A DNA stretch of 43,657 bases, from positions 1-43,657 of the forward strand of contig JANWKE010000078.1 of assembly GCA_025451535.1 (NCBI GenBank), given 5' to 3'. Shown in pieces: positions 18,073 through 29,192 of this stretch. The position numbers were made by a program, and so were the translations under genes. Under the pieces are notes generated by a model that did not search any database, was not told the origin of the DNA, and saw only the letters and a list, made by a program, of their open reading frames with translations. Each line of letters begins with the position of its first letter. The stretch's first letter is position 1. Origin of the DNA: Verrucomicrobiia bacterium. GTDB lineage: Bacteria > Verrucomicrobiota > Verrucomicrobiia > Limisphaerales > UBA11358.

Positions 18073-20946
18073 TTAACCAACGGCGATGTTCACCAGCTTT
18101 TTCGGCACCACGATGACTTTTTTGATCGTCTTGCCGGCAATGAACTGCTGGACTTTCTCCGAGGCCCTGGCGGCAGCTTCGAGGGTGGCGTTGTCGGCGT
18201 TGACCGGAACCTTGATCACGTCGCGCAACTTGCCGTTTACCTGGACCGGGATTTCCATCTCGCTCTCGACAAGCAACGCCGGGTCGAACTTTGGCCAGGG
18301 AGCGTAAGACAATGCGGAATGCGGAATGCGGAGTGCGGAATGAAGTTTGTCCCACAACTCTTCCGCCAAATGTGGCGCGAAGGGTTGAAGCAAAATCAGG
18401 AAATCGCGGAGCACGGAGACCGGTTTCGTCTTCCAGGTCATCGCCTCGTTCACAAACACCATCAGCGCCGAAATCGCCGTGTTGAAACGCAGACCGTCGA
18501 GGTCTTCGGTGACTTTCTTGATGCAGGTGTGGAGCGTTTTCAATTGTGCCGGGGTCGGTGCGACATCTCTGATTGCCGGATTTAATTTTATTAAATTAAG
18601 CAACTCTCCGCGCCTCTGCGTCTCGACGGTGGTTTCTGCCTGCTCAAATTCCGTTTCGGAATTTTCATCCACAAACAAGCGCCAGACGCGGCCGAGGAAA
18701 CGATAGACGCCTTCGACACCCTTGGTACTCCACGGTTTCACCATTTCCAACGGGCCCATGAACATTTCAAACAGGCGCAGGGCGTCCGTGCCGACTTCCT
18801 GTACCGGCTCGTCCACGGGGATCACATTGCCGCGCGACTTCGACATCTTCTGGTTGTCTTCGCCAAGGACCATGCCCTGATTGACGAGTTTGAAGAACGG
18901 TTCGGGTGTGGAGACGTAGCCGAGGTCAAAAAGCACCTTGTGCCAGAACCGGGCGTAAAGGAGGTGTAACACGGCGTGTTCTGTGCCACCGACATACAAA
19001 TCAACTCCTGGCGTCGTTGATTTGAGTCCTGAGTCCTGAGTCTTCAGTTTCGAGTCAGACTGCGGACTCTCGACTATGGGCTGTGGACTCGAAGCCCCCA
19101 TCCAGTATTGTTCCGCCTCTTTGCCAACGAATGCGTTCGGATTCTTTGCATCGAGATAACGGAGATAATACCAGCACGAACCGGCCCATTGCGGCATGGT
19201 GTTGGTCTCGCGGGTTGAACCGTCGGGCAGAGTTACCCAATCTTTGGCACGCGCCAGAGGCGGTTCGCCCGTAGCGGTCGGCTTGTAATCGGTCAATTCC
19301 GGTGGCAAGACCGGCAACACCGATTCAGGCAAGGCTTCGTGATACAAATTCCCGGCGGGGTCGCGTTTCCAGATAATTGGAAATGGCTCGCCCCAGTAAC
19401 GCTGCCGGCTGAACAACCAGTCGCGCAACTTGAAGTTGACCGTGCGCTTGCCGAGACCTTTGGCTTCCAGCCAGGTGGTGATTTTCTTTTTGGCTTCGGG
19501 CGTGGGCAAGCCGGTGATGGAAATTTCCGGGCCAGTGGAATTCACCGAAGTGCCATCCTCCACGAAACCGTGCCAATCGATTTTTGGGTCCGGGGGCTGA
19601 ACGACTTGGACAATGGGCAGATTGAATTTGGTGGCGAACTCGAAGTCGCGCGTGTCATGCGCCGGCACAGCCATGATGGCGCCCGTGCCGTAACTGGCGA
19701 GGACGTAATCGGCAATCCAGATGGGAATTTTTTGGCCGTTGACCGGGTTAATGGCGTAAGCGCCGGTGAAAACGCCCGATTTTTCCTTGGCCAATTCGGT
19801 TCGCTCCAAATCCGATTTTTTTGCGACTTCAGTTTTGTACTTCGAGATAGCTCCGCGTTGCTCGGCCGTCGTGATTTGATCAACGAGTCTATGTTCTGGT
19901 GACAGCACCATGTAAGTTGCACCGAATAAGGTGTCCGGACGTGTGGTGAAGACAGTAATTCTGAATTCTGAATTCTGAATTCTGAATTCGACTTCGGCAC
20001 CCTCACTGCGGCCAATCCAATTCCGTTGCATTTCCTTGAGCGAATCGCTCCAGTCAATCGTGTCGAGGTCAGTGAGCAGTTTCTCGGCATAGGCGGTGAT
20101 GCGGAGCATCCATTGGCGCATGGGCTTGCGTACGACCGGAAAGCCACCGACTTCAGATTTGCCATCCACGACTTCTTCGTTCGCCAAAACGGTTCCCAGT
20201 TGTTCACACCACCAAACTGGCTGTTCGCTTACGTAGGCGAGGCGTTTGTTGTCCAATGTGCGGCGGCGAACCAGTTCTTTTTCCTGCGCCGACATTTTGG
20301 TGTAGGCATCGTGCGTGCCAGCGAGAAAAGGGTTTTCTTTCCACTTATTTTTAAACTTCGGTTGTTCAGAAAGCGCATCTTTGAAAAATTCAATTGGCGT
20401 AGCCTTATTCCATTCAGGATCAAAATAACTATTGTATAACTTCAGAAAAATCCATTGGGTCCACTTGAAATAATCCGGATCGGTGGTGGCAAGTTCGCGC
20501 GACCAGTCGTAGCTGAAACCAAGCGACTGAATCTGGCGCTTGAAGGTGGCAATGTTTTCGTCGGTCGTCTTGCGCGGATGCTGGCCGGTTTTGACGGCAT
20601 ATTGCTCGGCGGGCAAGCCGAAGGCGTCCCAGCCCATCGGATGCAGCACATTGAATCCGAGCGCGCGTTTGTAGCGGGCGAGGATGTCCGTGGCGGTATA
20701 ACCTTCGGGATGCCCGACGTGCAATCCGGCGCCACTGGGATACGGGAACATGTCGAGAATGTAAAATTTTGGCGGGGCTTTGCGGCCGGCCACCATGGAA
20801 TCAGCCCCATGCCGTTCGGCAAAGGGATGGTTTTCCGGGATTTCCTCGCCGGGGTTAAAGGCGCGAAAGACCTGTTGTTTCTCCCAGAATTGTTGCCATT
20901 TGGGTTCGATCAGATGAAAAGGATATTGTCTGCGGCCGCTCGCCAT
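18073..20946 (-). CDS. leuS: Leucyl-tRNA synthetase carrying repeat-derived segments
   Basis: A 957-residue class I synthetase, longer than the roughly 820-880 usual for bacteria. It charges tRNA-Leu with leucine. The HIGH motif is in [18 protein letters not shown]. The CP1 editing domain contains [13 protein letters not shown] and [13 protein letters not shown]. The KMSKS motif is [11 protein letters not shown], and the anticodon-binding and C-terminal domains follow. Three tracts of 7-bp tandem repeats lie in frame: residues about 320-330 (EFRIQNS cycle, at the start of CP1), 619-642 (just before [11 protein letters not shown]) and 869-879 (HSALRIP cycle, near the C-terminal domain). The middle one is a clear insertion of some 28 residues. 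No stop or frameshift results, and all catalytic motifs persist. Divergent from a pseudopilin gene. Confidence 0.97.
18311..18342. repeat. Heptanucleotide repeat AATGCGG inside leuS
   Basis: Three perfect AATGCGG units, one AGTGCGG unit and a partial fifth unit. On the coding strand it reads as a 7-residue cycle [11 protein letters not shown]. Confidence 0.9.
19023..19092. repeat. Degenerate heptanucleotide repeat inside leuS
   Basis: About ten 7-bp units: TGAGTCC, TGAGTCC, TGAGTCT, TCAGTTT, CGAGTCA, then units headed GACT (GACTGCG, GACTCTC, GACTATG) and a final GACTCGA. It encodes the Ser/Gln/Lys-rich insertion before the conserved VDLYVGG segment. Confidence 0.85.
19957..19989. repeat. Heptanucleotide repeat AATTCTG inside leuS
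   Basis: Four perfect AATTCTG units and a partial fifth, 33 bp in total (11 codons). On the coding strand it gives the 7-residue cycle [11 protein letters not shown]. Confidence 0.93.
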
Positions 20947-21068: not shown

Positions 21069-21911
21069 ATGAATGCCCGTTCCGTTTTGCGGGGGCCGCC
21101 GCTTCTTACAACTGGTTTCACGCTGATTGAGTTGCTGGTGGTAATAGCCGTTATCGCCATCCTGGCGGCGATTTTACTGCCTACCCTGTCGGCGGCGCGC
21201 GAGCGGGCGCGAGGCCTGATTTGTCTCAACAACACGCGTGAACTCGAGTTTGCGTGGGAGCTTTACGCGGATGATCATAACGGCCAGTTGCCCGACAATC
21301 TGGTCATGACCGAGTTTGGCCCCCGGACCAATATTAATTGGGTCAACAATGTCATGACCTGGGATACGAGTTCCGACAACACGAACCTGGCCGCCATCAC
21401 CGATGCGAGTCTTGGCTCGTACCTCAAAGGGCAGACGAGCGTCTACCGATGTCCTTCCGACCATGCCATGAGCAGTGCTCAACGCGCCCTGGGCTGGACG
21501 GCGCGTATCCGCAGTTATTCCATGAACGCGATGCTGGGCGATGTCGGACAATTCACAACCGGCGGCACCAACATCAACAACCCGGATTACGTGCAGTTTT
21601 TCAAAGTCACGCAAATTCCCCATCCCACGGAAATTTTCGTCTTCCTGGACGAGCATCCCGACAGCATTGATGACGGTTATTATATCAATCGCGCCTATTC
21701 CTGGCAGTGGCGCGATTTGCCCGCATCGTATCACAACGGCGCCGCGGCGTTTTCCTTTGCCGACGGTCACAGCGTGTTGCACTCCTGGATGGTGCCCAGC
21801 ACCATCCGCCCGCCGTGGCCGGACGCGGCCAGCCTGCCCATTTCACTTCCCTACCGTGAATGGTCGGACTTCCAATGGGTGATTTCCCATATGAGTGTTG
21901 AAAATGACTGA
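21069..21911 (+). CDS. Prepilin-type N-terminal domain protein (pseudopilin-like)
   Basis: A 280-residue protein with the leader [20 protein letters not shown], in which Glu at +5 and the hydrophobic helix of type IV pilins and type II pseudopilins are conserved. The globular part contains [23 protein letters not shown] (Cys-Leu-Asn-Asn plus Tyr-Ala-Asp-Asp) and later [14 protein letters not shown], the ADG motif of the Verrucomicrobia/Planctomycetes family. CPSDHAMS adds the usual second Cys. It starts at ATG 21069, just downstream of a perfect 20-bp palindrome and without a strong ribosome binding site. It is divergent from leuS and convergent with the anti-sigma gene. Role in the envelope unknown; such genes occur in many copies per genome. 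Confidence 0.92.
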
Positions 21912-21932
21912 CGGCGCTGGTCGCCGCCCCGT

Positions 21933-22691
21933 TCACAACAGCTGTCGGATGGTCTGTTCGTCGCCGGCCGTGCCCAGCAGGTAAAGTTTGTCACCCTGCG
22001 ACCAGGTTGCCGTGATGAGTTGATTGACTCTGGCCAGTTGCGGCGGCCCGGCCGCCGGGGCGTTTTTGACCAGGGAGCGGTCAATGACAAACAGCCAAAG
22101 ATCGCCCGCCTGGCCCGGCGGAAGCGGTTTACCGGTACGGAAACAAATCATGGAAACCTTCACCCCCTGCCAGCTTTGGATGGCGCAGCCGGTCATCGCG
22201 ACCTTTTCGAGGGGCGCCGGCAAAACATAATCCGCCGGCGCATGATTTTGTTCGAGGTAGGCACGGATTTGCGCCGGATTATTCGTCGCCAAATCCATGG
22301 CGTAACCGCGCAGCGCCGCACCAACCATGCGGCTCTGGTAAATGGCCAGGGCGTTATCACTTGCCGGAGGCTGAAACCAGAACGTTGCCAGAATGAGCGA
22401 CACCACGATGACTGCTGCTACCGCCGTGAGCACAGTGTTCCGGCGCCAGATGATGATTTTTTCCTGCGCCTTCCGTTCGGAAATGATTTGTTCCTTCAAC
22501 CCGGCCGGCACCGGGATTTGGCGGAACTTCGCACGCAAGATCTCCTGCCGCGCGCAATGTTCACCAAACCAGCGCGCCAGTTCCGTGTTCTGTTTGACCA
22601 ACGCCAGCGCCTCAGTGATTTGCGGATCCGCGGCGTCCGCCGTACCGGAGCGGTAAAGCAGCAAAATGTTTTTGGCGTCGTCGTGGTTCAT
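21933..22691 (-). CDS. Putative anti-sigma factor (membrane-anchored)
   Basis: A 252-residue protein. The N-terminal about 90 residues are cytoplasmic and begin MNHDDAKNILLLYRSG, resembling anti-sigma domains, though without a clear zinc-binding HxxxCxxC motif. One membrane helix, TVLTAVAAVIVVSLILATFWF, lies near residues 100-120. The remaining about 130 residues would be periplasmic and contain AMTGCAIQSWQGVKVSMICF with two Cys, and GDLWLFVIDRS. The ATG at 22691 overlaps the sigma-factor stop as ATGA, so translation is coupled and the two products are likely partners. Position, overlap and topology support the anti-sigma role; the sequence itself does not name a family. It could sense a periplasmic redox or copper signal, given the target operon proposed below. 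Confidence 0.75.
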   Translation of the reverse strand: MNHDDAKNILLLYRSGTADAADPQITEALALVKQNTELARWFGEHCARQEILRAKFRQIPVPAGLKEQIISERKAQEKIIIWRRNTVLTAVAAVIVVSLILATFWFQPPASDNALAIYQSRMVGAALRGYAMDLATNNPAQIRAYLEQNHAPADYVLPAPLEKVAMTGCAIQSWQGVKVSMICFRTGKPLPPGQAGDLWLFVIDRSLVKNAPAAGPPQLARVNQLITATWSQGDKLYLLGTAGDEQTIRQLL

Positions 22692-23215
22692 AAATCCGGC
22701 TGGCACGAAGGCGAATTGGTTGCGGTGCCGCCCGTCAACAATTGATGTAACCGGTCAAGGCCGCGCGCCAGGCGCGATTTGACGGTGCCGATGGGCACTT
22801 CAAGGATTTCGGCAATTTCAAGATAGGAATGGTCCTGCAAGTAAAACAGGGCGACCGGCGCCCGGTAAATCTCGTCCAGGTTCGCCAGGGCGGAGAGCAC
22901 CTGCACGGTGTCCAGTTGATTGAACGAAGCCGGCGATACGGCGGGAAGCTCGGCGGCGGCCTGCTCCAGTTCCACATGGGGAAAGCGGACTTGTTTCCGC
23001 CGCACGCCGAGAAACTCGCGATGGAGGGTGGTAAACAACCAGGTTTTCACTTTCGATTCATCACGCAACTGGTGGCCTTTGGCCGCCCAGATGTAAAAGG
23101 TCTGTTGTGTCAGGTCACAGGCATCCGCCTCATCACGAGTCAAACTGAAGGCGAATTGATATAGCGACTGGTAATGACAAGCCACCAAGCTTTCAAAGTC
23201 CACGCCTTTAGCCAT
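22688..23215 (-). CDS. ECF-family RNA polymerase sigma factor
   Basis: A 175-residue sigma70-family ECF factor. Region 2 spans about residues 8-75: YQSLYQFAFSLTRDEADACD, then LTQQTFYIWAAKG and KVKTWLFTTLHREFL. Region 4 spans about 110-160: LDEIYRAPVALFYLQDHSYL followed by EIAEILEVPIGTVKSRLARG, a canonical helix-turn-helix. Regions 1 and 3 are absent, as expected for ECF proteins. A putative autoregulatory promoter lies upstream on the same strand. It is followed by a translationally coupled membrane protein, the likely anti-sigma factor. The divergent cupredoxin operon carries a matching promoter motif, so this sigma factor is the best candidate for its activator. The inducing signal is unknown. 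Confidence 0.95.
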   Translation of the reverse strand: MAKGVDFESLVACHYQSLYQFAFSLTRDEADACDLTQQTFYIWAAKGHQLRDESKVKTWLFTTLHREFLGVRRKQVRFPHVELEQAAAELPAVSPASFNQLDTVQVLSALANLDEIYRAPVALFYLQDHSYLEIAEILEVPIGTVKSRLARGLDRLHQLLTGGTATNSPSCQPDL

Positions 23216-23668: not shown

Positions 23669-24883
23669 ATGAATGCGATGAAACGTTTTTCGCGATGGGC
23701 AGGTATGATGATCGGCACGATGATTCTCACCGGCGCGCTTTCGGGTTCGGCCGCCTCGGTCACGGTGTTTGTCGGCAACACCAACCTCGTCGGCACGGCA
23801 GCCGACGTCTTTGTCCCGCCGGCTACGAATATCTTTCTGAATGATCAGGTCGTCTGGGTATGGGAAGGTAATTTTCATTCCAGTACCAGTGGTACCTCGA
23901 CCAGCAGTAACGCGACCCCCAATGGCTTGTGGGACTCAGGAATCAACAGCCAACCGCATTCGTTCACCAATACTTTCACTTCCCCCGGCAGTTTCACCTA
24001 CTACTGCTCGGTTCATTTCAATCTTGGCATGACGGGTGCGGTCAATGTCGCCTCGGTGCCGGCGCCGAAGGCGGTGACGGTGTTTGTCGGCAATACCAAC
24101 CTCATCGGCACCGCTGCCGACGTTTTTGTACCGCCCAGCACCAACATCAATGTCAATGACCAGGTGATCTGGGTCTGGGAAGGCAGTTTCCATTCCAGCA
24201 CCAGCGGCACCTCGACCAGCACCAACGCCACCCCGAAGGGATTGTGGGATTCAGGTGTGAACAGTCACCCGCATTCGTTCACCAACACATTCAGTTCCGC
24301 CGGCAGTTTCACGTATTACTGTTCAGTCCATTTTTCTCTCGGTATGACCGGCGTGGTCAACGTCGCCGGGGGGGCTTTGCCGCCAAACGTATCCATAACC
24401 AATCCGCCCACCGGCGCCACTTTGAGCGCGCCGGCTTCGTTCACCCTGGCGGCGACAGCCTCGGGTAATTCCGGGACCGTCACCAATGTCGAGTTTTTCC
24501 AGGGTGCTATATCGCTGGGTAACGTCACAACGGCTCCCTATTCAGTACCGGTGAGCAGCCTGGCCGCCGCGGATTACACCTTTTCGGCCGTGGCTTCAGA
24601 CAACAGCGGACAGACCGCTACCAATTCCGTTACCATTCACGTCGTTACGCCGGTGCCCATTGTCCTGAGTGCGCCGCAGTTCTTGCCGCCGTCGGATTTC
24701 CGATTCGATTATACGGCGAACCCGGGGCTCACCTATATCGTCCAACGAACCTCGAGCCTGAGTTCAGGCAGTTGGACCACCCTCAGCACGAACGTGGCGG
24801 GAGGCAGTCCGGTGTTATTCGACGACCCAACCGCCTCGGGTAATCCGGGATTTTACCGTGTAGGCCGATTGCCGAATCCGTGA
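23669..24883 (+). CDS. Exported protein with two tandem cupredoxin domains
   Basis: A 404-residue protein. The ATG at 23669 has an AAGGAGG ribosome binding site 6 bases upstream. A signal peptide (MKRFSRWAGMMIGTMILTGA) precedes two nearly identical plastocyanin-like domains at residues about 31-128 and 136-233. Each keeps type 1 copper ligands: His70, Cys113, His116, Met121 and His175, Cys218, His221, Met226, with the typical YYCSVHF...GM spacing. An Ig-like domain (about 240-345, from NVSITNPPTGATL) and a C-terminal beta domain ending FYRVGRLP follow. Such blue-copper domains carry single electrons. It is first in an operon with SCO1, an octaheme cytochrome and a cytochrome-barrel protein, so an electron-transfer role outside the inner membrane is likely. 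The tandem domains could alternatively store copper. Confidence 0.92.
   Translation: MNAMKRFSRWAGMMIGTMILTGALSGSAASVTVFVGNTNLVGTAADVFVPPATNIFLNDQVVWVWEGNFHSSTSGTSTSSNATPNGLWDSGINSQPHSFTNTFTSPGSFTYYCSVHFNLGMTGAVNVASVPAPKAVTVFVGNTNLIGTAADVFVPPSTNINVNDQVIWVWEGSFHSSTSGTSTSTNATPKGLWDSGVNSHPHSFTNTFSSAGSFTYYCSVHFSLGMTGVVNVAGGALPPNVSITNPPTGATLSAPASFTLAATASGNSGTVTNVEFFQGAISLGNVTTAPYSVPVSSLAAADYTFSAVASDNSGQTATNSVTIHVVTPVPIVLSAPQFLPPSDFRFDYTANPGLTYIVQRTSSLSSGSWTTLSTNVAGGSPVLFDDPTASGNPGFYRVGRLPNP
23759..24367 (+). repeat. Tandem duplication of a cupredoxin domain
   Basis: The units 23759-24052 and 24074-24367 are similar at both DNA and protein level. For example, VTVFVGNTNLVGTAADVFVP and VTVFVGNTNLIGTAADVFVP open the two domains. 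The short linker ASVPAPKA separates them. The copper ligands are kept in both. Confidence 0.9.
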
Positions 24884-24944
24884 TTAGCTTGCGCCGGCTG
24901 CGCAAATCCGCTATTCCGCAACGTGAATCCGTTTGAATAGCGGC

Positions 24945-25850
24945 ATGTTGAACAATATGTGGTCGCGGGGATTATTGACAGGCGTCTTTTGTTTTGTTTC
25001 GCTGCTTTCGCCACACGCGCAATCCGCGCCATCCCCGGATCCGGCTGAAACCGGCGCCCAGGTGTTCGCCGCCCGGGGAGTCGTGCGCGAGTTCAGTTCC
25101 AACGATCAAACGGTCACCATCAGTCACGAGGCCGTTTCCAATTATATGAGCGCCATGACCATGCCGTTCAAGGTCAGGGACACCAGGGAAATGTCTGGTT
25201 TACATCCCGGTGACGTGGTCACTTTTCGGCTTCACGTGACGCAGACGGATAGTTGGGTGGACCGGATCACCCGCATCGGAAACGTTCCCTTAAGCGAAAG
25301 CAAACCATTAGCGCCGCCGCCACCGGCTCACGGTCGAAATCCGCTGTGGTATTATAAGTTCACCAACGAACTGGGGCAGGCCGTCAGCTTGAGCGATTTT
25401 CATGGGCAGGCACTCGCCATCACCTTCGTTTATACCCGTTGTCCCCTGCCGAATTATTGCCCGCGACTGTCGAGAAATTTTCAGGAGGCGTCACACAAAC
25501 TGGAATCCCTGCCCGGAGCGCCGACCAACTGGCATTTCCTCTCCGTCTCCTTCGATCCCCAATTCGACACACCGGCGGTGTTGCAGGCCTATGGGGACAG
25601 CTATCAATATGATCCGAAACATTGGAGCTTTCTGACCGGGCCGCCGGAGAAAATCGCTGCCTTGGCAGAACAGTCCGGCGTCCGCTACCAATCCGACAAT
25701 GGATTGATCAACCATAACTTCCGCACGCTCATTGTGGATGGGAACGGTCATTTACAGACGGTGTTCCCGGTCAGCGGGGACTTTTCCGACTCGATTATTG
25801 CCGAAATCATCAAAGCGGCGGCGGTGACCAATCAACCCGCTCAACGCTGA
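24945..25850 (+). CDS. CusF-like domain fused to SCO1/SenC copper chaperone
   Basis: A 301-residue exported protein. The ATG at 24945 leads into a signal peptide (GLLTGVFCFVSLLSPHAQSA). Residues about 43-112 form a CusF-like copper-binding domain: RGVVREFSSNDQTVTISHEA with His61, then NYMSAMTMPF with Met68, Met71 and Met73. Tyr replaces the Trp of classic CusF. After a Pro-rich linker, residues 135-301 are the SCO1/SenC thioredoxin fold. It has VYTRCPLPNYCPRL, where the Cys pair (166 and 172) is spaced CX5C rather than the usual CX3C, and a conserved distal His257 in NGLINHNFRTL. SCO proteins deliver copper to cytochrome oxidase or other cuproenzymes. Here the likely client is the cupredoxin encoded 61 bases upstream. 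Confidence 0.93.
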   Translation: MLNNMWSRGLLTGVFCFVSLLSPHAQSAPSPDPAETGAQVFAARGVVREFSSNDQTVTISHEAVSNYMSAMTMPFKVRDTREMSGLHPGDVVTFRLHVTQTDSWVDRITRIGNVPLSESKPLAPPPPAHGRNPLWYYKFTNELGQAVSLSDFHGQALAITFVYTRCPLPNYCPRLSRNFQEASHKLESLPGAPTNWHFLSVSFDPQFDTPAVLQAYGDSYQYDPKHWSFLTGPPEKIAALAEQSGVRYQSDNGLINHNFRTLIVDGNGHLQTVFPVSGDFSDSIIAEIIKAAAVTNQPAQR

Positions 25851-25855
25851 AACGC

Positions 25856-26668
25856 ATGTGCCAGGCCTCCAAACCAGGGATGAGGCTGAAGCCAATGGCC
25901 ATCCTCATCGCGGTTTTGGGAACGGCGGGCGTGGTGATTCCCCTTTTGAATTCCTGTTCCACCACGCCGACGGCAGTAATGGTGCCGCTGGAAATTCCGG
26001 GCGCCCATTATGTCGGTAACAAGGCCTGCATGGACTGCCATGCCGGGATTGTCCGGGAGTTTCCCGTCAGTCCCCATGCCCGGGTTCATTTTGAGAACGC
26101 GGCTATGGTCGGCGAAACCGGTTGCGAGTCCTGCCACGGTCCCGGCAGCAAACACATCGAAACCGGCGGCAATGCAAAATTCATCATCAACCCGGGCACC
26201 GACCCGGCGTCCTGTTTCCAGTGTCATCTGGACGTCCAGGGTGAATTCAATCTGCCGCAGCATCACCCCGTCATTGAGGGGCACATGAGTTGCGTGCAAT
26301 GTCACGACCCGCACGGAGGTGATATTTTGAAATCAAAAGGCGGGCTGGCCATGGCCCGGCAAAATGAGAGCTGCGCGCAGTGCCATCGCGACCAGACCCG
26401 CCCGTTTGTCTTCGAACATGAGGCCATGCGCGAAGGCTGCACGGTCTGCCATAATCCCCACGGCTCGATCAACCGGAAGATGCTGGTCGAAAGCGACCCG
26501 AATCTTTGCCTGCGTTGTCACGCGCAAGTGCAACCGCCGGGAAGTTCCGGTGCCATCCTGATCGGCAACGTGGATCATACGCCATTTTTACAAGCAGGGA
26601 CTTGCTGGACAGCCGGTTGTCATACGGCGATACACGGTTCAAACGTGGACCCGCTGTTGCGATACTGA
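25856..26668 (+). CDS. Octaheme c-type cytochrome lipoprotein (DmsE-like)
   Basis: A 270-residue protein with seven CXXCH sites (at Cys58, 90, 120, 146, 173, 195 and 218) and one CX4CH site (Cys250-His256, CWTAGCH), giving eight candidate hemes. The leader ends in LNSC, a lipobox-like site, so it is probably a lipoprotein. An inner ATG at 25880 is an alternative start. The ending TAIHGSNVDPLLRY and the paired CXXCH spacing (CxxCH plus NPHG or DPHG) recall the DmsE/MtrA family of periplasmic multiheme cytochromes that plug porins. The start lies 5 bases after the SCO1 stop and the stop abuts the barrel gene ATG, so the operon is tightly packed. It likely carries electrons across the periplasm or outer membrane. 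Confidence 0.95.
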   Translation: MCQASKPGMRLKPMAILIAVLGTAGVVIPLLNSCSTTPTAVMVPLEIPGAHYVGNKACMDCHAGIVREFPVSPHARVHFENAAMVGETGCESCHGPGSKHIETGGNAKFIINPGTDPASCFQCHLDVQGEFNLPQHHPVIEGHMSCVQCHDPHGGDILKSKGGLAMARQNESCAQCHRDQTRPFVFEHEAMREGCTVCHNPHGSINRKMLVESDPNLCLRCHAQVQPPGSSGAILIGNVDHTPFLQAGTCWTAGCHTAIHGSNVDPLLRY

Positions 26669-26766
26669 ATGAACATTCAATATTCAACATCGCACCGCCA
26701 GCCTCGAACGCTCCCCGATTCGGGAATTCATTGGATCTTGAATGCCGGGAGTTGGGCGTTCGAGGT
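26669..26766. repeat. Heptad-periodic tract at the 5' end of the barrel gene
   Basis: 7-bp units ATGAACA, TTCAATA, TTCAACA at 26669-26689, a less clear middle, then TGGATCT, TGAATGC, CGGGAGT, TGGGCGT, TCGAGGT at 26732-26766. The tract carries the annotated ATG and the codons before the signal peptide. Confidence 0.55.
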
Positions 26767-29116
26767 TTTCCATCAATTTCCAATTTTGCCTCTTGTCGTT
26801 TGTCTCTTTACTTTTTCAATTTCCGCCGCCGAAACGAACTCGGTGCCGTTACCTCCCCCCGCCGGGGTGAAAATTGTTTTCGACCGCGACATCCGGCCCA
26901 TCCTCCAAAATTCGTGCCTGCGCTGTCACAGCGGCGAGAAACCAAAGAGTCATTTCCGGCTCGACGATCGCGCTTCGGCCCTGGCCGGCGGCGACAACGA
27001 CACCAACGACATCGTCGTGGGAGACGGCACGAACAGCCTGTTGGTCCATTATGTGGCGCGGCAGGTGAAAGACATGGAGATGCCGCCGGTTGGCAAAGGC
27101 AACCCGCTGACTCCGGGACAAATCAGCCTGTTGCGGTCGTGGATTGACCAGGGGGCAAATTGGAACACAACGAATCAAATCGCGTCGCTTGCCCTTTCCT
27201 TCTCGCCCACGCTGCGGTGGATCGGGGTCGAGGGCGACAAGGCGAAATATCGCGAGTTGCAGGGTATGAACGACGGATTTTCCGGCGGTGCTGAAGAATT
27301 TTCATTCACTCAACAAACCAGTCCCACCGAAAAACTCTCGTTGAGCGGGCATGTTATCGCCCCCGACCGGGATTATAAGTTGAACCTGGCGGTGGATGAG
27401 GCAGACCGGGGCTTCATCCACACTGGTTTTGAAGAATGGCGCAAATATTACGATGACCGCGGCGGATACGATCCGGTCGCAATTCCGCCGGAGTTGAGTT
27501 TGAACCGGAATTTGTACGTGGATAACGGCCGTTTCTGGGCGGATTTTGGCTTAACGCTGCCGCGCTGGCCACAAATCGTGCTGGGCTATGAATACGATTT
27601 TAAAAAGGGCACCGAATCCACGCTGGACTGGGGGGAAGCGAGCGGCGTCAATATCGCGCCTTCCACCAGGGCGATGGACGAACAAACTCATATTCTCAAG
27701 CTCGATGCCACGTACGATTTCGACGACTGGCATCTGGAGGACAATGCGCGGGTCGAGTTTTACCGCGAAAACAATCGCGGGTATGAAAATAATGTTTTCC
27801 AGCAAATCGGTACCACCAGCGGTACCACCTCCACCTCGGATAATTATAATCATGTTCGGGGCATGAACACAGTCATGCTGGAAAAACAGCTCTTCGATTG
27901 GTGGTTCTTGTCCGCTGGTTACTATTATTCGAGGCTGGACGGCAGCGATTTCTTCAGCCAGACCAATAGTCCGCAAATTGTGGCGGGCGACCCGTCCTCG
28001 TGGAACAGCAGTGAGATCACCCTGCGCCGCGAATCAGAGGTCTTCAGCGTGGCCAGTCTCTTTCGGCCATTGGACTATTTGAGCTGTTCGCTGGGTTCAC
28101 AAAACGAATGGACCCATCAGGAAGGATTCGGCGACAGCATTCCTTTTTTTGAATCGGGCAACAATGCCGCCGGGTTCGCCGATTATGATGAATTTAAGGC
28201 GTCACAAAATGCGAACCTGCGTTTCACCAAAATTCCTTTCACCGTCCTTTTCGCCGACGCGCGATTCGACGAGGACAGCATCGGAGAATTCCAGCAGGCA
28301 GGGGCCGGGCAGTACACGAACAAAACCGACGTGACCAGCCTCCATTACAATCTTCGAACCGGTTTCAACACCTCACCCTGGTATTGGGTGGCCTGGGAAG
28401 CCGCCTACCTGAGGCAGTACAGCGACTCGGATTACAATCACCTGATCGATGTTTTCAACGACCCACTCAACCTGGGTTCTGCCGCTCCCTTCAATGGCTA
28501 TCCGGCTTTCATCCTCAACCGGAAGATTCAAAGTGACGGCGTTGAAACCAAACTGACGCTGCATCCTTTAAACTGGTTGCGAACCACCTTGAGTTATCAG
28601 CTTACCGCCACGGAATATTCATCCAAAACCGACCCGGTATATTTCGGCCTTGCCCCCGGCGGCCCGATTGACGACGGACGCTACCGGGCGCAGACCTATG
28701 GCATTACCACCACCCTGACACCATTCCGGCGATTATACTTTTCCGGGACGTTTACCTATACCCACTCGTTGGCGGTTACCGCCGTCAATGGTGACCCATC
28801 CGTCGTGCCTTATCGCGGCGACATTTACACCTTTACCGGAACGACTGCTTATGCGCTGAATGCCAAAACCGGGCTACAGGCCTCCTATAGCTTTTCCGAC
28901 GCCGGCTTCGGACAAAACAACGCGCCCAACGGCGTACCCCTGGGCCTGGATTATACCCGCCACGTCCTGTTGGTGGGCTTGACGCGGCAGTTGACCCGGA
29001 ATCTTTCCGGAGCATTACATTACGAATTTTCGCAATACTCCGAACCCAGCAGCGCCCACCTGAATGACTTCACCGCCCACGGTGTTTTTGCCACGCTGAT
29101 TTACCGGTGGCCCTGA
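26669..29116 (+). CDS. Planctomycete-type cytochrome c domain fused to outer-membrane beta-barrel
   Basis: An 815-residue product. The first about 33 residues are encoded by heptad-periodic DNA and look non-native. A signal segment (ILPLVVCLFTFSISAAE) follows, so a later non-ATG start near 26789 is possible. Residues about 65-170 form a planctomycete-type cytochrome c domain: FDRDIRPILQNSCLRCHSGE, with heme site Cys83-His87, then SHFRLDDRASALAGGD, MEMPPVGKGNPLT and LLRSWIDQGANW. From about residue 190 to the end, alternating amphipathic strands with aromatic ends make a large beta-barrel ending in LIYRWP, resembling MtrB/PioB conduit porins. The gene follows the octaheme cytochrome with no gap. 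The pair is best read as a transmembrane electron conduit. Convergent with coaX. Confidence 0.85.
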   Translation: MNIQYSTSHRQPRTLPDSGIHWILNAGSWAFEVFHQFPILPLVVCLFTFSISAAETNSVPLPPPAGVKIVFDRDIRPILQNSCLRCHSGEKPKSHFRLDDRASALAGGDNDTNDIVVGDGTNSLLVHYVARQVKDMEMPPVGKGNPLTPGQISLLRSWIDQGANWNTTNQIASLALSFSPTLRWIGVEGDKAKYRELQGMNDGFSGGAEEFSFTQQTSPTEKLSLSGHVIAPDRDYKLNLAVDEADRGFIHTGFEEWRKYYDDRGGYDPVAIPPELSLNRNLYVDNGRFWADFGLTLPRWPQIVLGYEYDFKKGTESTLDWGEASGVNIAPSTRAMDEQTHILKLDATYDFDDWHLEDNARVEFYRENNRGYENNVFQQIGTTSGTTSTSDNYNHVRGMNTVMLEKQLFDWWFLSAGYYYSRLDGSDFFSQTNSPQIVAGDPSSWNSSEITLRRESEVFSVASLFRPLDYLSCSLGSQNEWTHQEGFGDSIPFFESGNNAAGFADYDEFKASQNANLRFTKIPFTVLFADARFDEDSIGEFQQAGAGQYTNKTDVTSLHYNLRTGFNTSPWYWVAWEAAYLRQYSDSDYNHLIDVFNDPLNLGSAAPFNGYPAFILNRKIQSDGVETKLTLHPLNWLRTTLSYQLTATEYSSKTDPVYFGLAPGGPIDDGRYRAQTYGITTTLTPFRRLYFSGTFTYTHSLAVTAVNGDPSVVPYRGDIYTFTGTTAYALNAKTGLQASYSFSDAGFGQNNAPNGVPLGLDYTRHVLLVGLTRQLTRNLSGALHYEFSQYSEPSSAHLNDFTAHGVFATLIYRWP

Positions 29117-29117
29117 G

Positions 29118-29192
29118 CCGGGAGCCGGCATCTTGCCGGCGAGTGGCAACGTGAACCACGAACTAACGCCGGCAAGATGCCGGCGCTCCCGG
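29118..29192. repeat. GGAG-type REPIN-like hairpin doublet
   Basis: Two inverted copies of GGGAG plus the hairpin GCCGGCA, loop TCT, TGCCGGC (29124-29140 and 29168-29184) enclose a 27-base centre. It fills the space between the convergent barrel gene and coaX and may terminate both. Confidence 0.8.

Follow-up and report, generated by a model that had tools for sequence, protein, structure and literature searches.

Octaheme cytochrome and heme-bearing barrel genes with facultative copper-protein neighbours in Limisphaerales (Verrucomicrobiota)

The present study concerns a 43,657-nucleotide stretch of DNA from a Verrucomicrobiia bacterium (Limisphaerales, UBA11358; GenBank assembly GCA_025451535.1, contig JANWKE010000078.1, positions 1 to 43,657, forward strand; hereafter the window), in which four adjacent genes at 23669-29116 encode a secreted tandem blue-copper protein (CUP), a copper chaperone (SCO), an eight-heme cytochrome (OCT), and a barrel protein with its own heme domain (BAR). 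OCT and BAR are regarded as an MtrAB-type pair because the best Protein Data Bank (PDB) match of OCT is MtrA and the best structural match of BAR is MtrB. This pair is conserved across the order, and cupredoxin genes recur beside it above chance, a copper link that is real but facultative. It is tentatively proposed, at slightly less than an even chance, that OCT and BAR form an MtrAB-type conduit with the PSCyt1 heme of BAR as a relay and with CUP loaded by SCO, most likely serving electron uptake.

OCT and BAR as an MtrAB-type pair

All four open reading frames (ORFs) lie on the forward strand at the positions given by an earlier reading of the DNA (the sequence-only reading), and coordinates, domain searches, and heme motifs agree with its description of four tightly packed genes with these products (Table 1). 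The intergenic gaps are 49 bases (CUP-SCO), 5 bases (SCO-OCT), and 0 bases (OCT-BAR), the ATG of BAR directly abutting the TGA of OCT with both genes in frame, and this spacing on one strand suggests that the four genes form one operon.

Table 1. Features of the OCT-BAR locus and its surroundings in the window
Feature	Position	Strand	Remarks
CUP, secreted tandem type 1 blue-copper protein with immunoglobulin-like domain and C-terminal module	23669..24883	+	Copper-bind x2, Big_7
Cupredoxin domain 1 of CUP	23753..24049	+	halocyanin-like stretch, residues 29-127
Cupredoxin domain 2 of CUP	24122..24364	+	Copper-bind, residues 152-232
Big_7 immunoglobulin-like domain of CUP	24383..24586	+	Pfam, residues 239-306
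C-terminal module of CUP, ending FYRVGRLPNP	24641..24880	+	found in cupredoxins and further secreted proteins of OCT-BAR loci
SCO, CusF-SCO1 fusion, copper chaperone with CX5C	24933..25850	+	CusF_Ec 1e-14, SCO1-SenC 5e-17
OCT, eight-heme MtrA-like lipoprotein	25856..26668	+	GSU2203/DmsE models below cut-off; 6r2q_A E=1e-38
BAR, PSCyt1 heme domain fused to 26-strand MtrB-like barrel	26669..29116	+	PSCyt1 (Pfam), AlphaFold2
PSCyt1 heme domain of BAR	26915..27088	+	residues 83-140; CLRCH and invariant M138-P-P, likely axial Met
Beta-barrel of BAR, 26 strands	27188..29110	+	residues 174-814, AlphaFold2 model
Anti-sigma-like membrane protein	21933..22706	-	ORF divergent from the operon, overlaps the ECF sigma gene; named from position
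Extracytoplasmic function (ECF) sigma factor, divergent, candidate operon regulator	22688..23215	-	Sigma70_r2 and r4 (Pfam)
Perfect 18-nt inverted repeat	29124..29184	.	25-base spacer, no T run; just 3' of BAR

OCT contains seven CXXCH motifs and one CX4CH motif (CWTAGCH, residues 250-256), corresponding to eight hemes and not the ten of MtrA. In an alignment of 26 sequences, including that of the window and five from the sister loci described below, the Cys and His residues of hemes 2-8 were invariant, and those of heme 1 and the lipobox residues S33-C34 were at least 90% conserved. The nearest family models were those of the DmsE/GSU2203 decaheme cytochromes, which scored below their curated cut-offs. 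A profile of OCT homologues searched against the PDB retrieved chain 6r2q_A as the best match (next chain, 5e-12), together with weak matches to octaheme nitrite reductases. The best stretch of the alignment placed the last six heme motifs of OCT on the C-terminal part of MtrA, and a second stretch covered motifs further towards the N-terminus. The molecule name shown for 6r2q_A, cystathionine beta-synthase, is odd, since the entry, in which MtrA is chain A and MtrB chain B, bears the title 'Structure of the Mtr complex'.

For BAR, residues C83, C86, H87, and M138-P-P were invariant in 41 sequences, indicating that its PSCyt1 heme is likely His/Met-ligated. The AlphaFold2 model obtained from 41 BAR sequences (predicted local distance difference test, pLDDT, 82.8) showed 26 predicted strands between residues 174 and 814. 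Foldseek ranked MtrB (6r2q_B) first for this model (E 2.5e-15), and VIA-align likewise placed 6r2q_B first, with Z 21.8 and a root-mean-square deviation of 3.7 over 568 aligned residues (next row, Z 14.9). By sequence, neither Pfam nor NCBIfam, the MtrB/PioB models included, gave a match on the barrel at E up to 1, and none was found among PDB chains. The PSCyt1 domain lies N-terminal to the first barrel strand and, since both ends of MtrB face the periplasm, it should by analogy be periplasmic. These results bear out the suggestion of the sequence-only reading that a multiheme protein beside a barrel follows Mtr-type logic, and a barrel of 26 predicted strands is not too small for a cytochrome plug.

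Conservation of the pair and its heme-less sisters

The survey of BAR comprised 94 distinct heme-type loci besides the window, namely 80 stretches from sampled genomes and further database relatives, with duplicates removed and contig fragments included; L054, L056, L136, L141, and L215 were counted despite long N-terminal extensions or a cut ORF. OCT was found directly upstream of BAR in 91 of the 94 loci, and in the remaining three (L117, L123, and L212) BAR lies within 54 bases of the contig start. The named relatives belong to Limisphaerales, Pedosphaera, and Verrucomicrobia subdivision 3, mostly as metagenome genomes with one single-cell genome, and the sources in their titles include bog, palsa, lakes, and groundwater; a few records are plainly misnamed (e.g., Akkermansia and Klebsiella). 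A tally of 181 of the 196 genomes, obtained with the PSCyt1-bearing BAR query and at most five candidates scored per genome, was rejected as a count of BAR because other PSCyt1 proteins crowd the matches. With the barrel alone as query, 134 of the 196 genomes showed a barrel of one or the other type, and heme-type BAR was present in at least about 80 (hand count of matches spanning nearly all of BAR).

Inside the order, a sister kind of locus with a heme-less barrel was represented by 16 fetched loci and the window genome's own on contig C80 (n = 17), so that this genome has both kinds. A further ORF with at least four CXXCH motifs was detected at 16 of the 17 sister loci versus 0 of 90 heme-type loci, and a small ORF (<250 aa) with one to three hemes at 12 of 17 versus 0 of 90; flank length varies among loci, and absence here means absence from the flanks examined. 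The second conduit of the window's genome (L174, G000:C80, and L238) comprises a nine-heme cytochrome, OCT, and a heme-less barrel. About 10 kb from the sister pair, C80 also carries genes that we take to be NrfC/NrfD-like, NapC/NrfH-like (PF03264), and for cytochrome maturation, only the PF03264 assignment coming from a family model.

Across the phylum, the barrel profile matched 22 of 387 sampled genomes, 20 of them outside the order and the other two being the window's own genome and one of its genus. Of ten further barrel loci examined, nine lie outside the order and one in the window's genus; all had OCT beside a heme-less barrel, such fusion-less OCT-barrel pairs in other groups of the phylum being clear homologues. 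Among these ten, the barrel closest to that of BAR (E 3e-152) was found outside the window's class at L217 (G321:C91), where OCT and a heme-less barrel are accompanied by a separate four-heme cytochrome and, about 5 kb away, an SCO gene; this locus is possibly an unfused relative of the BAR system or a misbinned contig.

Copper genes beside OCT-BAR

Cupredoxin genes flanked 28 of the 94 BAR loci, all on the strand of BAR; 18 followed BAR (immediately in 14 cases) and 10 preceded OCT (seven with SCO between). None was detected at the 17 sister loci or at 34 other loci (431 kb, mostly PSCyt1-only matches), giving P of about 1e-6 for 28/94 versus 0/51 in a Fisher test that treats the loci as independent though they are not. 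The cupredoxin profile was built from matches in BAR loci and is thus biased towards them; a motif scan of the control loci revealed no convincing type 1 copper site. The independent Pfam model Copper-bind gave 226 matches in 196 genomes, and among the matches listed at least 15 rows in at least 14 genomes lay beside BAR (compared by hand), against an estimated chance expectation of about 0.3 for the BAR flanks when a total of 0.8 to 1 Gb is taken. Two of the cupredoxin neighbours, at L062 and L133, had Gln at the expected Met ligand. On the BAR tree, which was inferred with FastTree only and in which long branches meet, the presence of a cupredoxin changed at least 15 times and that of SCO at least five times.

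The exact order CUP-SCO-OCT-BAR, which might have been unique to the contig, was found in eight loci (the window, L033, L034, L036, L044, L053, L095, and L097). All but L053 belong to one clade, which comprises eight BAR rows; its remaining member, L038, has no copper genes in the examined flank; at L045, SCO precedes OCT and a cupredoxin follows BAR. Within the window's genus, this order occurred in all five sampled genomes with a full BAR and was found in none of the other four. The proposal of the sequence-only reading that copper and heme meet in one envelope chain was thus partly upheld: cupredoxins recur above chance, but only 28 of the 94 loci carry one and only 10 of 94 carry the CX5C-type SCO of the window (its CusF part being found in nine of the 10). 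Detection of neither at most BAR loci indicates that neither is needed by the core pair.

SCO starts with TTG, an ATG lying 12 bases downstream, and its CusF and SCO1 domains both exceeded their curated cut-offs. SCO of the window has a CX5C motif, as does its counterpart at each of the 10 other distinct loci carrying this gene. Another SCO of the same genome, located in what is presumably a heme-copper oxidase operon, has instead CX3C, the canonical SCO copper motif, and the distinctness of the CX5C protein from this oxidase-linked one fits a separate client.

In CUP, the H, C-H, and M ligand motifs (FHSS, YYCSVHF..GMTG) could be read in both cupredoxin domains, which arose by internal duplication; the two 300-nt copies (window 23757-24371) share 80% DNA identity, and the duplication therefore appears to be fairly recent. 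The immunoglobulin-like domain and the conserved C-terminal module of CUP went beyond the earlier description. The 80-residue module also occurs in proteins that replace CUP before OCT with another, non-copper head (L106, L050, L107, L111, and L140). At four of these loci, a secreted head domain without a name (IWNGP...DDIYL...RST) stands instead of the cupredoxin in CUP-like proteins directly before OCT (L106:5869-6240, L050:7090-7485(-), L107:6131-6547, and L140:728-1102), and Big_7 was the only family found in the scanned members with an IWNGP-type head. The module was considered as a locus-specific docking tag, and this was rejected, as a search revealed weak matches of a broad superfamily in 167 of 196 genomes and, among 28 strong matches (E<1e-21) whose places were set by hand against the BAR search results, eight lay elsewhere, 18 beside OCT-BAR, and two reached contig ends (in G073, where BAR is also near the contig end, and in G070, in whose assembly the barrel search found no barrel). 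The module marks a family of secreted proteins and is not a dedicated docking tag. The larger cupredoxin neighbours of BAR bear immunoglobulin-like and FG-GAP domains, which suggests that they may be exported beyond the periplasm.

Rieske and cytochrome b neighbours

A motif scan detected Rieske proteins near four of 90 BAR loci (L040, L051, L104, and L199) versus 0 of 17 sisters; all four were confirmed by Pfam, and three of the four loci also have a cupredoxin. At L040:4892-11377, a Rieske gene, a gene for cytochrome b joined to a c-type heme domain, and the genes of OCT, BAR, and a cupredoxin form a single string. Nothing else hints as clearly at a high-potential chain, although this arrangement would fit flow in either direction; the conduit may thereby be tied to a bc-type complex. 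In the wider neighbour survey, 52 of 80 non-cupredoxin same-strand neighbours were scanned, with SCO, most short ORFs, near-duplicates, and some others dropped; the commonest families were Ham1 (in five), myo-inositol oxygenase (in four), and Big_7 (in four), and such low counts indicate no other general partner. A search with PF14589 gave no match anywhere, controls included, and was thus uninformative.

Proposed mechanism and alternatives

In the mechanism proposed here, OCT would be lipid-anchored at the inner face of the outer membrane and would plug the 26-strand barrel of BAR, with electrons crossing along its eight hemes. The PSCyt1 heme, on the periplasmic side, could then relay electrons between OCT and periplasmic carriers, in a locus that would operate without an outer multiheme cytochrome of its own. 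CUP, putatively loaded with copper by the CusF-SCO fusion, would be the redox partner encoded with the conduit in this clade, and a donor outside the cell (reduced iron, manganese, or humic matter) would supply electrons that are taken up towards the heme-copper oxidase, as in Pio/Mto and Cyc2-rusticyanin. Uptake is favoured since the window locus has neither a quinol dehydrogenase nor an outer cytochrome, since a separate export-type set exists in the genome, and since blue copper, Rieske centres, and His/Met hemes are usually high-potential; a His/Met heme with blue copper, joined in a relative by Rieske and cytochrome b, is in keeping with a high-potential chain. A bolder version, in which the conduit of an order-wide group of Verrucomicrobiota lost its extracellular multiheme cytochrome, gained a high-potential periplasmic heme through the barrel fusion, and uses a secreted blue-copper redox face as an inward metal or humic oxidase, is considered rather unlikely.

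Several observations weigh against the proposed mechanism. About 70% of BAR loci had no detected cupredoxin and about 90% no detected SCO of this type, and the immunoglobulin-like and C-terminal modules could place CUP outside the cell. The prediction of OCT fused to BAR, in which the TGA separating the in-frame genes was translated as a residue, reached a predicted template modelling score (pTM) of 0.66, but OCT, with pLDDT mostly <50, was not confidently folded or positioned in the barrel. No sign of lithotrophic growth was found, the only RuBisCO-family gene being the one described at the end, and the link to Rieske and cytochrome b could equally feed electrons outwards from quinol, so that these genes slightly lower the confidence in inward flow. 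Furthermore, close relatives of CUP without OCT-BAR nearby occur in G124, G039, G192, and G152. That of G124 (L228, G124:C281) sits between genes taken to be LeuRS-like (leucyl-tRNA synthetase) and Ham1-like, and that of G039 (L230, G039:C289) adjoins presumably sigma/anti-sigma-like genes; at these two loci, the conduit was perhaps lost and the copper protein kept.

The same conduit might also run outwards, with humic matter or ferric iron accepting electrons drawn from the quinone pool, a doubtful reading that nonetheless carries appreciable weight. He et al. 2017 (PMC5615132) proposed export for octaheme-porin clusters of a humic bog, above all for those of its anoxic layer. Sources given in the titles of several loci here are bog, palsa, lake, and groundwater, and the Rieske and cytochrome b genes at L040 could tie quinol to the conduit. 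However, the genome already possesses the fuller export-type set on C80, and the features of the window locus that favour uptake, including the usually high potential of blue copper, speak against this direction.

It is unlikely, on the other hand, that the conduit is real and its CUP and SCO neighbours play no role in it, being involved, for example, in copper handling or adhesion. Such hitchhiking would be in line with the 66 of 94 BAR loci without a detected cupredoxin, the same-tailed proteins with a non-copper head before OCT, and the solitary relatives of CUP, but it is at odds with a same-strand linkage far above chance that recurs on the tree both upstream and downstream and is missing from all 17 sister loci. 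We regard as very unlikely the reading that there is no conduit at all, with OCT as a periplasmic redox enzyme and BAR as an uptake channel whose heme serves sensing or anchoring: it would accommodate the weak matches of OCT to octaheme nitrite reductases and the lack of a confident model of OCT inside BAR, yet MtrA and MtrB were independently the best matches of two adjacent genes, and the pair stays together. The uptake conduit remains the preferred reading.

Comparison with known systems

To our knowledge, the known wires across the outer membrane consist either of hemes alone or of a small barrel bearing a single heme. The closest parallels are MtrAB, PioAB, and MtoAB (MtrCAB structure 6R2Q), in which an MtrA-related multiheme cytochrome likewise stands beside a 26-strand MtrB-fold barrel, Pio and Mto also being without an outer multiheme cytochrome. 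OCT differs from their cytochromes in its eight versus ten hemes and in its lipobox, BAR in its fused PSCyt1 heme and in a barrel that no family model matches by sequence, and the system as a whole in the cupredoxin and SCO genes of some loci.

Porin-multiheme systems had been said by the sequence-only reading to be known in Verrucomicrobia, and indeed clusters of an octaheme periplasmic cytochrome and a porin of at least 20 strands were reported there by He et al. 2017 (PMC5615132), with octaheme-porin pairs also in PMC6344600. OCT-BAR falls under the definition worded in He et al. 2017, by which an octaheme cytochrome gene adjoins the gene of a porin with at least 20 strands. Section 12 of that paper, compared by its text alone, mentions neither a heme fusion nor a copper protein, and several of the clusters it describes include an extracellular multiheme cytochrome, in contrast to the examined BAR flanks, where none was found. 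The porin and octaheme periplasmic cytochrome of Geobacter OmbB-OmaB-OmcB are similar by description, but that system has an outer 12-heme cytochrome, compared with 0 of 90 BAR loci with another ORF of at least four hemes in the examined flanks.

The Cyc2-rusticyanin pathway of Acidithiobacillus-type Fe(II) oxidation resembles the window's system in an N-terminal single heme fused to a barrel and in a blue-copper protein of the pathway. Cyc2 is described as having about 16 strands and a single heme (PMC8406198), from which BAR differs by its 26 strands and its octaheme partner; a route from Cyc2 to 26-strand barrels has been proposed (PMC10654088). In Sideroxydans, the Slit_1812-1818 genes group cupredoxins with an SCO1 protein and a cytochrome and, according to the account in PMC12016527, are raised on magnetite like MtoA. 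The grouping of cupredoxins with SCO is shared; that copper cluster is separate, whereas the copper genes of the window stand in the same string as the conduit. A report on a multicopper oxidase (PMC11708043) bears only loosely on the present system.

In a literature search that did not extend to subscription papers or preprints, neither a PSCyt1-barrel fusion nor Verrucomicrobia porin-cytochrome clusters with cupredoxins were recognised as described. The octaheme-porin core was already known; what looks new is the fusion of a heme domain to a barrel of the MtrB type, together with its copper company. Such a barrel, at loci without an outer cytochrome and recurrently accompanied by copper proteins, spans a large, mostly uncultured soil and freshwater order, and screens may miss it: the criteria given for a 2026 porin-cytochrome survey demanded a cytochrome of at least 10 hemes (PMC13264449). 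If the copper link is functional, an uncounted class of bacteria would trade electrons with minerals or humic matter, and the OCT-BAR pair is compact enough for laboratory expression.

Genomic surroundings

The only RuBisCO-family gene found (L237:4352-5680(-)) adjoins a gene that we take to be sugar-acid kinase-like and further genes presumed to act in sugar catabolism. It was rejected as a sign of autotrophy because of these carbohydrate-catabolism neighbours, and probably encodes a RuBisCO-like protein of carbohydrate catabolism and not of carbon fixation.

Around the operon of the window, a consensus promoter scan gave no signal exceeding that of shuffled sequence, and the anti-sigma-like ORF had no Pfam match over the cut-off. 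The inverted repeat behind BAR may be a terminator or an interspersed repeat. Pseudopilin-like, anti-sigma-like, and ECF sigma genes occupy 21069-23215, with LeuRS upstream at 18073-20946. Homologues of the first three were each detected near nine of 40 BAR loci, and a Ham1/RdgB gene followed BAR in nine of 40. Given these recurring pseudopilin, anti-sigma, sigma, and LeuRS neighbours, the chromosomal position of the window's BAR locus looks ancestral.

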